64,000 nucleotides of DNA from Symmachiella dynata (GTDB lineage Bacteria; Planctomycetota; Planctomycetia; Planctomycetales; Planctomycetaceae). The stretch spans positions 1,293,001 through 1,357,000 of the forward strand of contig NZ_CP036276.1 of NCBI RefSeq assembly GCF_007747995.1, given 5' to 3'. How positions within the stretch are numbered: position 1 is the stretch's first letter; each line of letters opens with the position of its first letter. The notes beneath the pieces were generated by a model. That model made no database searches, was not told the origin of the DNA, and saw only the letters and a program-made list of their open reading frames with translations. The position numbers and the translations under genes were made by a program. This document shows positions 6,071 through 54,737 of the stretch, piece by piece.

Positions 6071-7822
6071 TTAACGCAAGACCTCCGACCGACCAGTGAT
6101 TGATGGATCAGGTTGATTTCCGTTTTCGCCGTCGATATGCGGTTGTGCTTTTGATGCGGAATTCTGATGGATTCGTGAGGGGTGGACGAATGCGGTGAAC
6201 TCAGACTGGGGTAAATCGTGCAGTGGGATCTCCCTTAATCCGCTTCGGTGCGCGCGTGCGCGGTGAGCTGCGCGGACGGGGCGTACCAGGATAAGCAAAT
6301 CGGGGTGGGTGTATTTTTTCTGAATTGTATTGTAGAGGATGTTGGGCATTTTCCCGACTGTGTGAAATCCGACGCGTCCAGATTTCCGATCGGTTTCGAC
6401 CTTTTCAAATGGGCCGAAGGTCGTGCGTAGGTATTTTCCCAAATTCGCTTGTGCCACGCGACTTTCGTGGCGGCTGGTGAGTGCTTCGAACCAAAATATC
6501 AGAGAGACGCTGAGCACGAACGTAGCGGTGACGACAAGTTTTTGATGGTGACTGATCGTCTTCGGCAGGGCGACGGACTGGATGATCTGAATTAAACAAG
6601 CGGCTCCCGCTGCTTGGATGGGCAAGGTAATGATGAACACGGACAGAAAATACCGTCCATTGATATTCCGGTGTTGAACGAGCAGGACCAACACGGCGAG
6701 CAGGATGGCCGCTGCGATCATGAGCAACGGCGCATAGGTGCGTGATCGCAAGAGACGGTGACACTGCGTCAGTCCCACAATCAACAAGACTAGATTGAAA
6801 TATTCATAACTTTCACTGAACTTGTTGAGGAATTCAAACCAGATCGCCTTTTCATCGGCGCGCTTCTCAATTGATTTCAGATTGCTTGATGAGTTGTCGG
6901 TCTCAGTGGTGGAGTGGGAGAGGCGCGGGCGGGATTGCGTTGCGGCTGCCATTGTTTTGGCTTGAGGATTATTCGTGGGCGATACTTGTGATTGCATCCA
7001 TGCGACAATTTTGGGGACCCGATCAAAGCGTCCCCATTGCCAGTGGGGGTATTCTGCGAGCAGTGTGAGGTTCATGGCGAACATGCAAAGCGGGATCATG
7101 GCCAAAACGATCACGATGCGTTGGGTTTGCCGCAGTCGGGAGACAGTTGCAGGAGCTAGGCTGAACAGCCAGAAGCAGGCCAGCGGGATCAAGGTCCAAC
7201 CTTCGGTACGTGTGAGGATAGCGCAAGCCGTGGCGAGGCCAGCGGCGATGGGAGTAGCGATATTATCGCGGGATGTCGCGCAGCGCAGCAGTAAATAACT
7301 CGCCAATATAAAACAGAACCAGTAGGTCGATTCGCGAATTGGTTCGACGGAGAGTTTGACTAACTCCGGATGCATGGCGAACAGCAGGACGGCAATGGTG
7401 GCCCAACGGTCATTGAATAGACGACGGACCAACCCAAAGAGTGGCAACACGGTGAGACCGGAGATCAAAATGCCCCAGATCTTGAAGTGCCAGGGAAAAG
7501 CGAGCCCCGCACTTTCCAGTCCCCATAAAATAAACGGAAAGATATTGAGGTTCAAATAGTTCAGAGCTGCATCCGTCTGACCTTGTTTCCACATCTCGAC
7601 GACCGACAGATAAAAGTATCCGTCGTCGCAAATCACCGAGATTTGCCTGGCCAGTAGCAGACGGGGAATGACGGTCAGCAGCATCAAGAGGGCCAGGATC
7701 AGACCCAGCTGTCTTTGCGTGAAGGGCTTCCCTATGAAGAATTCGGGTATACCTTCGAGATTTCGAAGGGAGGGCTCTTTGCCTGTTTGATTCCACGAAG
7801 CGAATTGCAAAGAATTCTCCAA
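6071..7822 (-). CDS. GT39/ArnT-type polytopic membrane glycosyltransferase
   Basis: A 583-residue protein with about ten hydrophobic segments, beginning after a 40-residue cytoplasmic leader. The first extramembrane loop has the acidic pair ICDDGYFYL, matching the DD/DE catalytic site of dolichyl/undecaprenyl-phosphate-sugar:acceptor glycosyltransferases (PMT/ArnT-like, PF13231). Such enzymes move a sugar from a polyprenyl phosphate carrier to a protein or lipid at the outer face of the membrane. A paralogue with the same design lies at 47089-48810. It is the first gene of a two-gene unit with the ComEA-like protein. Acceptor unknown. Confidence 0.85.
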   Translation of the reverse strand: MENSLQFASWNQTGKEPSLRNLEGIPEFFIGKPFTQRQLGLILALLMLLTVIPRLLLARQISVICDDGYFYLSVVEMWKQGQTDAALNYLNLNIFPFILWGLESAGLAFPWHFKIWGILISGLTVLPLFGLVRRLFNDRWATIAVLLFAMHPELVKLSVEPIRESTYWFCFILASYLLLRCATSRDNIATPIAAGLATACAILTRTEGWTLIPLACFWLFSLAPATVSRLRQTQRIVIVLAMIPLCMFAMNLTLLAEYPHWQWGRFDRVPKIVAWMQSQVSPTNNPQAKTMAAATQSRPRLSHSTTETDNSSSNLKSIEKRADEKAIWFEFLNKFSESYEYFNLVLLIVGLTQCHRLLRSRTYAPLLMIAAAILLAVLVLLVQHRNINGRYFLSVFIITLPIQAAGAACLIQIIQSVALPKTISHHQKLVVTATFVLSVSLIFWFEALTSRHESRVAQANLGKYLRTTFGPFEKVETDRKSGRVGFHTVGKMPNILYNTIQKKYTHPDLLILVRPVRAAHRARAHRSGLREIPLHDLPQSEFTAFVHPSRIHQNSASKAQPHIDGENGNQPDPSITGRSEVLR

Positions 7823-51980: not shown

Positions 51981-53618
51981 TCACAACACGATCGACTCCA
52001 CCTCGGCAACGAACCGTTGGGTATCGTCGCTGATAAACGCGGCAACCACGTTAAACACGGCGTCCGAAAATCCACCGATGTTCAAAATGTCACCCCGTTC
52101 CGGAGCCTGCGTCGTTTCATACGGTTGAATGTCGACACACACCAATTTTGGTGCGGCGATGTCGTGACCGCCCAGTCGCATTTGGTTCTTGATGAACGCC
52201 TGCCACTCGGTGATCACACCCGTCGAACCATATCGGCCCGTGCCAACCCAACTCTCATTGTCGCTCACCAGAATCGCTCCAGCAAAACGCCGGTCGCGAT
52301 ACATGGTGTTCGCAAAATAGAGCGGAATCGAACAGTCCGTTCCGCCCCCACCAAACTTCGCCAGCCGCTTCGACAGACTCAAAATCGAGTCGGCCGGATC
52401 GAACTGGGCGCTGTACGCCTGCGTGTCGAATGGAATCAACACGCTGTCCGGATTGCGACGCAACATCGCTGCAGCGAACAAGGCCGCTACATCGACACAG
52501 CGCATCGTGCTCGTTGCACCCCGACCGCGACGTCCCGTGATGGCCATCGACATCGAACCGGACGTGTCCAATCCGATCACAACCGGTCCCGGCAATTCCG
52601 GTACGTTTCCGCAAGAGATCTCTGCCGCCTGGTGCAGCGCTGCTTTGATCTTGTGCGGAACCTCAGCCGAGGCGTTCAAGGAGGCCGCCAAGTATTGGTA
52701 TGGAAACTGACGCGAGCGGCGAATTTCGTCCACGTCGCTCAGGCGATTGGCTACGTAATCCACCATCTCGTTGTCCCGCCAACCCTTGCTGAATACGTGA
52801 TGACGCAACAACGTGTTGAGGTTCATCCGCAGCGCCTGCGGTCCCATCTGACGGGCAATTGCCTTCCAGACGGCTGGACCGAGAGCCGCATCGGCCAACA
52901 GATCCCACCGCACCGACAGACCATCTCCGTCGAGCAGTTGAATCTGCGCCTCCACCGAATCTGCTGCGCGATAGGCGATTAACTTCCGCACCGTTTCCGG
53001 CAGGTCGCCTGCGGAGGCCGGAGCCCACTTGTCGAGCTCTTTGTCCGTCAACCACCCAAACAGCGCACGTCGCTGATTGTCCTTCGGCGTTGGCCGCGCC
53101 ATCCGCAATACGTCGCGCAAGCTCGGATCGTGACCGATCGAAGCCGACAACAACTTACCGACCGATGCTTCGTTCAACCACCTCGCAAATGCGCGCTGCA
53201 GCGACGACGACAGGCTGTTCCGCCCGAATTGTCCCGAACGAATCATCTGAAACATCGTCCGCAGTACGCGTCCGTTATCGACCACACGATCGAAAACGCG
53301 GTGCATCAATTCCGTATCACGATTCGACAATGCGACCAGCAGCGCCGCCGGCATGTCCTTCATGTAGGCACGCTCGCGCGCATAAACAGCTAACTGCGCT
53401 AGGTACTGGTTGTCGTCGATTTTGTCGATCAACGTCCGCACCGTATCGAGTTGATTTTGAGCGCTCGCGTAGTACGCGCCGCCGAACGTCCCGGTGGCCG
53501 CCATTTGCGCCAGCGCCTGTTTCGGCGTCAACTGATAGGCGCGACCTCCTGCTTCGTTTTTTGCGAACGCGCGTGGGAATTTGCTTTTCAAGCTTGAGAA
53601 GAGTGTGTTGTTGGCCAT
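51981..53618 (-). CDS. rsr: Ro60 orthologue (Rsr): TROVE plus vWA domain RNA-binding protein
   Basis: A 545-residue Ro protein. Residues about 20-340 are the HEAT-like TROVE ring ([27 protein letters not shown] at its start), which binds misfolded RNA ends and Y RNAs. The C-terminal 200 residues are a von Willebrand A domain with an intact MIDAS: DTSGSMS, a conserved Thr in [11 protein letters not shown], and Asp in LVSDNESW. In Deinococcus and Salmonella, Rsr works with Y RNAs, PNPase and other exonucleases in structured-RNA degradation, and in 23S rRNA maturation. GGAGG is 5 bases from ATG 53618, which I prefer over ATG 53621. It sits 66 bases after the five Y-like RNAs on the same strand. 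No rtcB or rtcA is nearby. Confidence 0.95.
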
Positions 53619-53684
53619 CATGACCTCCGTGACAAAAATAGCATCCCCTGTGAAATGACGAGCGACATCGGGCGGGGTGCGGAC

Positions 53685-53800
53685 AAAAAAACATTCGACG
53701 AAGTATTGGGCAGAGTTCCGGCCCCGTGCTAAAAAACATAAAGGGGGCCGGGCAGGAATCGAACCAGCTAAACCATGGACTCCACTCAGGCAGTCGAATG
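53685..53800 (-). ncRNA. Y-RNA-like unit A: T-arm/acceptor minihelix mimic
   Basis: Ends pair as an 8-bp helix, CATTCGAC (53800-53793) with GTCGAATG (53699-53692), followed by T7. The inner conserved motifs are GACTGCC-TGAG-TGGAGTCCATGG after the 5' strand and CTGCCCAATACTTCGTCG before the 3' end. Inside lies a T-arm with GGTTCGATTCC and acceptor arm GGGCCGG/CCGGCCC closed by a T-rich loop. There is no room for a D-arm or anticodon arm. It is nearest to rsr. Family identity is inferred from neighbours and shared motifs. Confidence 0.75.
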
Positions 53801-53951
53801 AAAAACGTTCCGACGAAGTTGTTGATCAGAAGGCATCCCCGTGCGGGGACTCATGTGCGTTATCCAATTACGCCACGGCACACAGTTGTGCCGGTGAGAT
53901 TCGAACCCACATTCTCATGATCCGATGTATTCCAATCGGTCAGTCGAAACG
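53801..53951 (-). ncRNA. Y-RNA-like unit B: permuted tRNA mimic
   Basis: Ends pair by CGTTTCGAC (53951-53943) with GTCGGAACG (53814-53806), then T5. Between the shared Ro-type motifs (CTGACCGATTGGAATACAT ... CTGATCAACAACTTCGTCG) lies a tRNA in permuted order: TCATG, T-arm GTGGG-TTCGAAT-CTCAC, acceptor CGGCACA, 4-base link ACTG, acceptor TGTGCCG, D-arm GCG-TAATTGGATAA-CGC, CATGA. The acceptor stem (7 bp) and the CATGA/TCATG helix are perfect, so the folded domain is a full tRNA-like L with the acceptor closed and the Y stem where an anticodon loop would be. A second hairpin (CCCCG-CA-CGGGG) is inserted. This matches known bacterial Y RNA tRNA mimicry. Confidence 0.85.
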
Positions 53952-53961
53952 TCTATGTATG

Positions 53962-54108
53962 AAAACTTGACCGACGAAGTGTTGAGCCAGAGACTTACGC
54001 TGCTCTGCCATTGAGCTACACCTCCGTCGAAAAAAAGTGGAGGTGGTAGGACTCGAACCTACAACTCGCGGGATATGGACCATGTACTCCGATTCGGCAG
54101 TCGGTCAA
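53962..54108 (-). ncRNA. Y-RNA-like unit C: permuted tRNA mimic
   Basis: Ends pair by TTGACCGAC (54108-54100) with GTCGGTCAA (53975-53967), a perfect 9 bp, followed by G and T4. Shared motifs are CTGCCGAATCGGAGTACATGG and CTGGCTCAACACTTCGTCG. Inside, in permuted order: T-arm GTAGG-TTCGAGT-CCTAC, acceptor CACCTCC, a 13-base T-rich link, acceptor GGAGGTG, D-arm GCTC-AATGGCA-GAGC. Acceptor pairing is perfect at 7 bp. The T-arm and D-arm sequences match normal bacterial tRNA consensus closely, so this looks like a copied tRNA rather than chance. Confidence 0.87.
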
Positions 54109-54116
54109 ATTGTTTC

Positions 54117-54318
54117 AAAAAATCGCCCAACGAAGGTTTGTCGAGAAATAATCGGCCGTCCGTTGCGACAACACGAACGTCGTCGCCCGTTGACCGGCCC
54201 CTTTATCTGCGGCGAACATTATTGAAAAAGTCGCGCAGACTCCAGCGCCATTCACTAGCCGGTTACCCGGAATCGCTACCTTAGGACCGTCATGGATTCC
54301 CGAACGGCAGTTGGGCAA
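54117..54318 (-). ncRNA. Y-RNA-like unit E with 23S rRNA domain IV mimic
   Basis: Ends pair by TTGCCCAAC (54318-54310) with GTTGGGCGA (54131-54123, one G-U pair), followed by T6. The 5' motif is CAACTGCCGTTCGGGAATCCATG. The cargo begins with ACGGTCCTAAGGTAGCGA (54290-54273), which is, from memory, identical over 18 bases to the universal 23S rRNA segment that holds the I-CeuI site; then TTCC, a CCGG-GTAA-CCGG hairpin where 23S has a GGGTAA loop, and GAATGGCG, in the 23S order. The remaining 110 bases form further hairpins (GCGACGAC with GTTGTCGC; TCTGCG with CGCAGA). It is the largest unit. No tRNA-like arms are evident. Confidence 0.75.
54273..54290 (-). other. 18-nt match to universal 23S rRNA (I-CeuI site region)
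   Basis: ACGGTCCTAAGGTAGCGA on the minus strand, inside Y-like unit E. The match to E. coli 23S rRNA around position 1930 is by recall. Shorter collinear blocks TTCC, GGGTAA and GAATGGCG follow. There is no other rRNA sequence in the window. Confidence 0.85.
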
Positions 54319-54322
54319 TGTT

Positions 54323-54394
54323 CAAGACCACTCGACGAAGGATTGGTTCAGATGGTCTTACACAAAGATGTATTCCGAACGTGCAGTCGAGCGG
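54323..54394 (-). ncRNA. Y-RNA-like unit D: minimal unit without mimic domain
   Basis: Ends pair by CCGCTCGAC (54394-54386) with GTCGAGTGG (54336-54328), 9 bp with one G-U. It contains only the shared motifs CGACTGCACGTTCGGAATACAT and CTGAACCAATCCTTCGTCG around about 15 bases (TTTGTGTAAGACCAT). The tail is TCTTG, a poor U-run. It starts 4 bases after the tRNA-Cys 3' end and so is probably released by tRNA processing. Confidence 0.65.
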
Positions 54395-54471: not shown

Positions 54472-54489
54472 GTTTTGTATTAATTGTCT

Positions 54490-54615
54490 TTCAGCGTCGC
54501 GGGAGGGCGAAGCTCCTGCTGAGCCGCTTTTTCCACTCAGCGTGGAGCGACCCAATGGGTTTGGTCAGCGTTTTGGTTCAGCGCTGCTCGGCGGGAGCCT
54601 CGCCCTCCCTTTTTA
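54490..54615. repeat. Inverted GGGAGGGCGAAGCTCCTGCTGAGCC repeat pair
   Basis: Left arm GGGAGGGCGAAGCTCCTGC (about 54501-54519) and right arm GCGGGAGCCTCGCCCTCCC (54590-54609), each with its own palindromic core (CGAAGCTCC; GGAGCCTCG), separated by about 70 bases. Such palindromes occur across many planctomycete genomes. It lies between two tRNA genes. Confidence 0.7.
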
Positions 54616-54737
54616 AAAACACGCGCTAAAATATGAATTAGTAAAGACGTTTCCAAACCCGGTTGTGCTTGTCAAACACGCGTTAAAACTACGTTGGACG
54701 CCCAGCATCAGAGGGTTTGGAAACAAAAAGTAAAAAG

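Follow-up and report, generated by a model that had tools for sequence, protein, structure and literature searches.

The window analyzed here is a stretch of 64,000 nucleotides (nt) from the single-contig, 7.77 Mb genome of Symmachiella dynata (NZ_CP036276.1, positions 1,293,001 to 1,357,000 of the forward strand), and it harbors rsr, the gene for an orthologue of the Ro60 protein, which has close protein relatives at 13 loci in one collection, all from planctomycete assemblies. The minus strand carries, in this order, tRNA genes (Leu, Ser, Arg and Cys), five Y-RNA-like units and rsr (Table 1). By reading, the 5′ and 3′ ends of every unit of the array form a stem, and the units have a box like CRACTG...GGANTMCAT behind the 5′ strand, a variable cargo and CTTCGTYG on the 3′ side, with a T run 3′ of four of the five. 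The present analysis concerns one of them, unit E, which an earlier reading of the letters alone (the sequence-only reading) had described as a Y-RNA-like unit carrying a mimic of 23S rRNA domain IV, a description that the comparison with related genomes supports.

The cargo had been said to begin with 18 bases of 23S rRNA, a match very improbable by chance. This 18-mer, ACGGTCCTAAGGTAGCGA, is indeed present on the minus strand at 54273-54290, its sole place in the 7.77 Mb genome at up to two mismatches, and it grows to 21 bases, ATGACGGTCCTAAGGTAGCGA (54273-54293), all of which (21/21) equal the 23S rRNA of a genome of the same family, G007; Escherichia coli 1916-1936 differs from this stretch at a single position, 1918. 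We estimate that a sequence of 64 kb would contain about 0.005 exact matches of an 18-mer to any position of 23S. The 18-mer lies in the I-CeuI region of 23S. The pieces said to follow in rRNA order fared unevenly, as GAATGGCG is present in order, while TTCC is not conserved as an rRNA match and was rejected as part of it; it is a side of the H71-like hairpin, and relatives mostly read TGCC or TGTC there. The best place of TGAATGGCG of the window unit in the whole 23S is 1967-1975, with a score reached by 16 of 100 shuffles. The 23S of G007 and E. coli rrlB served as references in place of the host 23S, as a search of the 7.77 Mb genome sequence with RF02541 found none, and the sarcin-ricin pattern gave merely two matches there, each with two mismatches.

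Related units were compared in two alignments, A2 (14 units) and A5 (27 units from three families), both of which exclude the family units of G152 and G066 because of inserts and contain the contig shared by L013 and G065 once; a further alignment of the cargo without the Y stem (A3) misplaced the second stem, P2, and was left unused. In the Rfam alignment of large subunit rRNA, with the helices numbered H67-H71, the 23S order is H67 5′ strand, H68, H69, CUAAG, GUAGC, the AAAUUCCUU segment, H71, UGCACGAAU and H67 3′ strand. Unit E runs from the H69 3′ strand through CUAAGGUAGCGA and H71 to GUGAAUGGCG with the H67 3′ strand, and continues through a closing hairpin, the H67 5′ strand and a short H68 to AACGGACGGCCG(UAA), the H69 5′ strand. 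Read in this way, the cargo corresponds to an H67-H71 junction in circular permutation, with its opening in H69 at the entry of the Y stem. The apical hairpin that closes H67 has no 23S counterpart, since H67 of 23S runs on into rRNA, and the segment containing U1939 (AAAUUCCUU in 23S) is shrunk to 1-3 bases in all 27 A5 units, so that enzymes acting there are unlikely partners. Neither the permuted 3′ end (54152-54164) nor the wide conservation had figured in the sequence-only reading.

Table 1. Unit E, its parts and its neighbors at the rsr locus, in positions of the window (R1, covariance model built from 14 mimics; partner strands are given with the feature).
Feature	Positions	Strand	Evidence
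Unit E, Y-RNA-like; cargo reads as permuted 23S domain IV mimic	54120..54319	-	R1 match 54120-54318, 152.7 bits, qualified by unit E being one of the 14 sequences used to build R1; alignments, pair counts
Y stem 5′ strand ATTGCCCAAC	54310..54319	-	Helix 1: 8/10 pairs changed on both sides
Second stem P2, 5′ strand; partner 54141-54147	54297..54303	-	4/7 pairs changed on both sides
H69-equivalent 3′ strand ACGGTC (23S 1919-1924); partner 54152-54157	54285..54290	-	A5 pair counts
Unpaired strand CTAAGGTAGCGA, identical to 23S 1925-1936	54273..54284	-	Mean column conservation 0.94, 27 units
H71-equivalent hairpin, GNRA-like loop	54258..54271	-	4/5 pairs changed on both sides, 97% of cells paired (A5)
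GTGAATGGCG (like 23S 1966-1975) continuing into H67-equivalent strand; partner 54196-54201	54244..54255	-	H67 pair counts
Apical hairpin closing H67 end	54205..54240	-	Helix 6, A2 and A5 counts
Shortened H68 equivalent: GTC/GAC base and variable hairpin 54165-54186	54158..54194	-	Helices 7 and 8
Permuted 3′ cargo end AACGGACGGCCGA, like 23S ~1899-1911 (H69 5′ strand)	54152..54164	-	Positional test
Y stem 3′ strand GTTGGGCGAT, then T run	54122..54131	-	Helix 1 pair counts; T run by reading
Sister Y unit, small hairpin cargo	54328..54394	-	CCGCTCGAC/GTCGAGTGG stem, by reading
Sister Y unit, permuted tRNA-like cargo	53964..54108	-	R1 30.3 bits; YrlA 42.2 bits, E 7.8e-8, gathering score 69 not reached
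Sister Y unit, permuted tRNA-like cargo	53807..53950	-	YrlA 27.5 bits, below gathering; limits by reading
Sister Y unit, tRNA-like T arm and acceptor stem, no D arm seen	53692..53800	-	YrlA 22.2 bits, E 0.047, gathering score not reached; also by reading
rsr (Ro60 orthologue, 546 aa)	51981..53621	-	Pfam vWA_Ro60 2.2e-12, TROVE 7.6e-8

The structure was drawn by eye on A2 and then counted, and that of A5 was transferred from the window row. In A2, 91.9% of 651 cells are paired and 30 of 50 pairs changed on both sides, compared to 87.4% of 1281 cells and 33 of 50 pairs in A5, percentages of paired cells that are flattered, as the structure was derived from the same sequences and related rows are not independent. 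None of 500 shuffles was as high on any of five measures for A2, slid structures reached 28-46% paired, and again none of 500 shuffles was as high for A5. Paired cells of the Y stem amount to 95.2% (A2) and 88.8% (A5), and the H67 helix, with 4 of 6 pairs changed on both sides, is 91.5% paired in A2. When left to choose its own structure on A2, RNAalifold recovers the Y stem, P2 and the hairpins of H71, H67, P6 and H68. The highest mean column conservation of 18 segments across the 27 units (0.94) falls on the unpaired CUAAGGUAGCGA strand and the H69 3′ strand, compared to 0.92 and 0.88 for the Y boxes, 0.87 for the H71 loop and 0.63-0.76 for the other unpaired parts. A comparison with the 23S helices, as the sequence-only reading had proposed, thus finds a conserved fold that matches H67, H68, H69 and H71, with H69 the least certain.

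A similarity ending at the 18-mer would have refuted the sequence-only reading, but it extends further, as both the region behind GCGA and the permuted 3′ end find their expected places in 23S. For this positional test, scores were summed over units from 10 of the 14 A2 rows and slid along windows of 23S. The part of the window unit downstream of GCGA ranks first of 513 windows by itself, and the 10-unit sum of the cargo after GCGA is best at the expected place, from 1937 onwards, where six of 513 windows are equal, all of them overlapping. For the 3′ end, the 10-unit sum is best at 1899-1914, and the top five of 521 windows overlap there; taken singly, the 3′ ends of L013, L025 and L051 rank first among 521, that of the window unit sixth, and those of L041 and L054 at 158 and 143, respectively. 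The place of the opening varies, in that 8 of the 27 units start with CGUAAC or CGAAAC and end with GGC, which corresponds to a cut between 1908 and 1909, and the other 19 are without such a start and have the H69 5′ strand at the 3′ end instead. In 18 of these 19 the strand reads GGCCG or a compensated variant, and in the isolated unit of G015 it reads GCUCG, where one pair is broken. The exchange of start and end across the 27 units therefore indicates that each unit retains a single H69 5′ strand, irrespective of where it is opened.

A one-off insertion, which the sequence-only reading had named as a possible refutation, is not what the relatives show, as full-length units were found in 24 of 170 family genomes and in three genomes of other families, in most cases immediately upstream of rsr; L007 and L013 are two relatives that have the unit next to rsr. 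A 22-base pattern with two mismatches matches 46 of the 170 family genomes, and the loci read are true 23S mixed with mimics. R1 at E 0.01 matches 28 of the 170, of which 24 have full-length units (68-183 bits) and the remaining four have matches of 45 bits or less to sister units with the common Y stem; 12 of the 24 contributed sequences to R1 and 12 contributed none. True 23S scores at most 13.7 bits with R1, and its best match lies at E. coli 1889-2011, the place of domain IV. Outside the family, the unit occurs in G285, G482 and G514, which belong to two other families of the same class within a 392-genome sample of the phylum. The order-level set consists of the same 170 genomes, and in both the family and the phylum counts units may have been missed, as the search filters score few candidates per genome. 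The family-search matches of G152 and G066 were partial owing to inserts, and later R1 searches match both at full length; in G066 (L123 271-564) about 100 nt are inserted in the H71-H67 link, and in G152 (L121 6489-6756) several dozen nt in the closing hairpin, in both cases outside the 23S-like core. No match to a 24-base pattern was found in viral contigs, and none was found in plasmids.

The unit is linked to rsr. An Rsr match exists in 50 of the 170 family genomes, 36 of them close (best piece at least 65% identity) and 14 remote only (40-46%), and the unit is found in 22 of the 36 genomes of the first group and in none of the second, while 2 of the 120 genomes in which Rsr has no match also carry it. 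A same-strand rsr follows the unit at a distance of about 190-1310 nt in 20 of the 24 family genomes; of the other four, G015 showed no rsr, the contig ends in G066, and rsr is on another contig in G075 and G077. Outside the family, the unit lies upstream of rsr in G285 and G514, and in G482 rsr is on another contig. A 19-base core is identical to 23S at 16-19 positions in the 22 rsr-adjacent units (mean 18.1), compared to 14 in G015, 16 in G077, 16 in G482, and 18 in both G075 and a copy at a contig end in G072. These numbers are small, and they point to a constraint on the core that depends on rsr.

Three of the four sister units are weakly YrlA-like and may be tRNA mimics. In two of them, the T arm and the 3′ strand of the acceptor precede the 5′ strand of the acceptor and the D arm, a permuted order. 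A further type of Y unit was observed in the relatives L002 (2907-2996), L012 (5287-5376) and L013 (5244-5329), whose small hairpin cargo has a GTGCCG(C/A)AAGGCAC or like stem, and in G379 (L122), a genome of the same phylum and another family, Y-like units at 6162-6317 and 6811-6885 (R1 34.7 and 31.6 bits) lie near a Ro60 gene of 43% identity and are without a 23S mimic. A search of 26 arrays for a second rRNA mimic, against E. coli 16S, 23S and 5S and one planctomycete 23S, gave one match of more than 13 nt outside domain IV, namely 16 nt between Y units of G024 (L126 3129-3144) identical to E. coli 16S 294-309, on a scale where mononucleotide shuffles yield 0.55 matches of at least 14 nt per full array set; it could have arisen by chance or be what remains of another mimic. 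At 54480-54720 of the window, between tRNA-Arg and tRNA-Cys, are two long inverted repeats (GTTTCCAAACCC...GGGTTTGGAAAC; GGGAGGGCGAGGCTCCCGCC...), and similar sequence occurs in G151 (L125 2820-3120).

Among known RNAs, the leaders of ribosomal protein mRNAs also imitate an rRNA protein-binding site, yet they are cis-regulatory and not Y RNAs in an rsr array. With 23S domain IV (H67-H71; about 1856-2001 of RF02541), unit E shares a strand identical to 1916-1936 of planctomycete 23S, and helices and order correspond once unit E is un-permuted; it differs in being permuted, in its shortened H68, in the near loss of AAAUUCCUU with U1939 and in the extra closing hairpin, and it has no RF02541 match up to E 10. 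YrlA (RF02553) is alike in its gene beside rsr, its stem from the 5′ and 3′ ends and its effector domain mimicking a structured RNA, and three sister units as well as units of relatives match RF02553 below threshold, the best at 44.1 bits and none at the gathering score of 69 bits. Unlike YrlA, unit E has an effector domain that mimics 23S domain IV rather than tRNA, and it gives no RF02553 or tRNA match up to E 10. The DrY RNA of Deinococcus radiodurans, which forms RYPER with Rsr and PNPase, is comparable as a Y RNA that acts as tether and gate for an Rsr involved in rRNA maturation and decay, whereas the available part of its description mentions no rRNA mimicry (PMC4726728). A literature search found no such RNA described, planctomycetes included, with a mention in the key papers on Rsr and bacterial Y RNAs still possible.

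We consider it reasonably probable that unit E acts as a bacterial Y RNA with an effector domain that mimics the 23S domain IV junction, and that it links Rsr to a factor that reads this junction. The support from sequence comparison consists of the permuted order, the conservation of the 1917-1936 strand, the covariation within the helices, the occurrence in several genera and the association with rsr. In such an RNA, H67 would be closed by the extra hairpin, and the chain would be opened inside H69, where the Y stem leaves. The Y stem would bind Rsr, as those of other Y RNAs do, and the rRNA-like domain would be bound by a factor that normally reads the 23S junction, for which modification enzymes, assembly or maturation factors and rRNA-decay factors are candidates. 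The Y RNA and Rsr may then carry or gate this factor toward misfolded or immature 23S, in parallel to the tRNA-like sisters. YrlA combines a stem for Rsr with a tRNA-like domain that DusA and TruB modify (PMC8394870). DrY RNA tethers Rsr to PNPase, and Rsr contributes to rRNA decay and, under heat, to rRNA maturation (PMC4726728). By analogy, unit E would present the 23S junction to a factor, and it probably links Rsr to one that recognizes a 23S substrate; the earlier suggestion that it recruits or blocks an rRNA-processing or modification enzyme is plausible on the model of YrlA.

Several observations weigh against this interpretation. In the positional test, a shorter downstream piece scores at least as high as at its true place in 9 of 517 windows, two of the listed ones lying elsewhere, at 1395-1400 of the reference 23S; a single 3′ end does not have the length to reach significance by itself, and the positional result depends on a sum over related, non-independent units. 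The H67 helix is only 68.6% paired in A5, the minimum free energy folds of the window unit, L007 and L013 deviate from the model (z-scores -1.4 to -2.7), and covarying H69 pairs number just one (A2) or two (A5). RNAalifold on A2 omits the H69 pairing and pairs GUC with GGC instead. At the outermost H69 position of A5, 43-189, 9 of 20 units have A-A, and the window unit is one of these. The discriminating pair 47-185 is paired in 26 of the 27 A5 units, as U-G, C-G, U-A or G-U, the alternative 146-185 in 24 of 27, and at 146-182, the base pair of H68, 23 of the 27 have U-A and the other 4 have C-G. The 23S-like junction is preferred over the GUC/GGC option because pairs 47-185 and 146-182 support it, which gives the modeled H69 pairing within the junction moderate confidence. 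Regarding distribution, the sister species G151, whose Rsr is 97% identical, has the array with a clean absence of unit E (L125 3200-3310), and 14 of the 36 family genomes with a close Rsr are without a detected unit. G024 (L126 2926-2960) and G031 (L127 2828-2862) contain what looks like short 5′ stubs of unit E, and 20 stretches upstream of rsr without prior detection, one of which is just 410 bases long and two of which come from G075 and G077, whose units sit on other contigs, held no full unit and sister units in 10. From these absences in relatives it follows that unit E is a dispensable module, open to loss.

TlyA was considered as a partner. This enzyme reads H69 and the junction at its base (PMC9403184), and its profile TIGR00478 reaches the cut-off in 0 of the 170 family genomes compared to 7 of 14 control genomes, which counts against our interpretation as well. 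Weak TIGR00478 matches occur in 55 of the 170; most cover just a small part of the profile, in many cases the first 50-66 positions, and a partial match of greater strength is seen in one genome, G070. TlyA thus appears an unlikely partner, while RluD and assembly factors are further candidates.

The same anatomy would suit a decoy as well as a tether, and unit E may instead titrate an rRNA modification enzyme, an assembly factor or a ribosomal protein off 23S, with Rsr merely stabilizing it, as is paralleled by the rRNA-mimicking leaders of ribosomal protein mRNAs. That the best conserved segments are the single strand 1925-1936 and the H69 3′ strand would also fit. However, one full-length copy is present in 23 of the 24 genomes (two in G072), poor for titrating a factor of many ribosomes, and the unit sits with rsr and has the Y stem common to the sister units, so we regard a decoy as unlikely, if worth keeping in mind. 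We give little credence to a lure for a nuclease or toxin that attacks ribosomes near H69-H71, by which ribosomes would be shielded under stress: the mimic is opened in H69 and, in our reading, two sister units near the anticodon, yet the segment around U1939, where a known MazF cuts, is reduced in the A5 units.

Two further explanations deny the RNA a role of its own. A chance insertion of a functionless rRNA fragment would account for the clean absence in G151 and for three isolated units that have lost part of the core, but homologues are spread over three families with compensatory changes, mostly at the same place beside rsr, and such an origin, already contradicted by the covariation and distribution results, is highly improbable. 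Scarcely credible at all is a piece of a fragmented host 23S gene, or a landing site of an I-CeuI-type homing endonuclease kept at the DNA level, for which the lack of a visible 23S in the host genome sequence and the location of the 18-mer in the I-CeuI region could be invoked. G033 has both the mimic (C1:289458) and a 23S that aligns over E. coli 1-2888 with the H69-H71 stretch intact, by which this explanation is already contradicted for this genome, and the conservation includes RNA base pairs, beyond a DNA site.

The link between Rsr and a junction-reading factor may have a broader, more speculative counterpart. The anticodon hairpin of tRNA and H69 of 23S meet at the decoding center, and the rsr array could conceivably, though improbably, be a panel of Y RNAs that copy structured RNAs in nicked form, tRNAs at the anticodon loop and 23S in H69. 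Each unit would hold two "cut" ends on one Y stem, and Rsr would thereby be able to present enzymes of repair, modification or decay with a reference for tRNA and 23S that have been damaged.

Bacterial Y RNAs have so far been described as tRNA mimics or PNPase tethers, and the wide conservation of unit E suggests that these RNAs can mimic rRNA besides tRNA. Circular permutation, which unit E has in common with tRNA-like sister units, suggests a shared way to build Y RNA effector domains. The mimic is compact and stands on its own, so it could serve directly as bait for its protein partner. If the interpretation is true, the mimicry principle of Y RNAs would extend to rRNA, and the unit would provide a handle on the part of Rsr in 23S maturation and rRNA decay.
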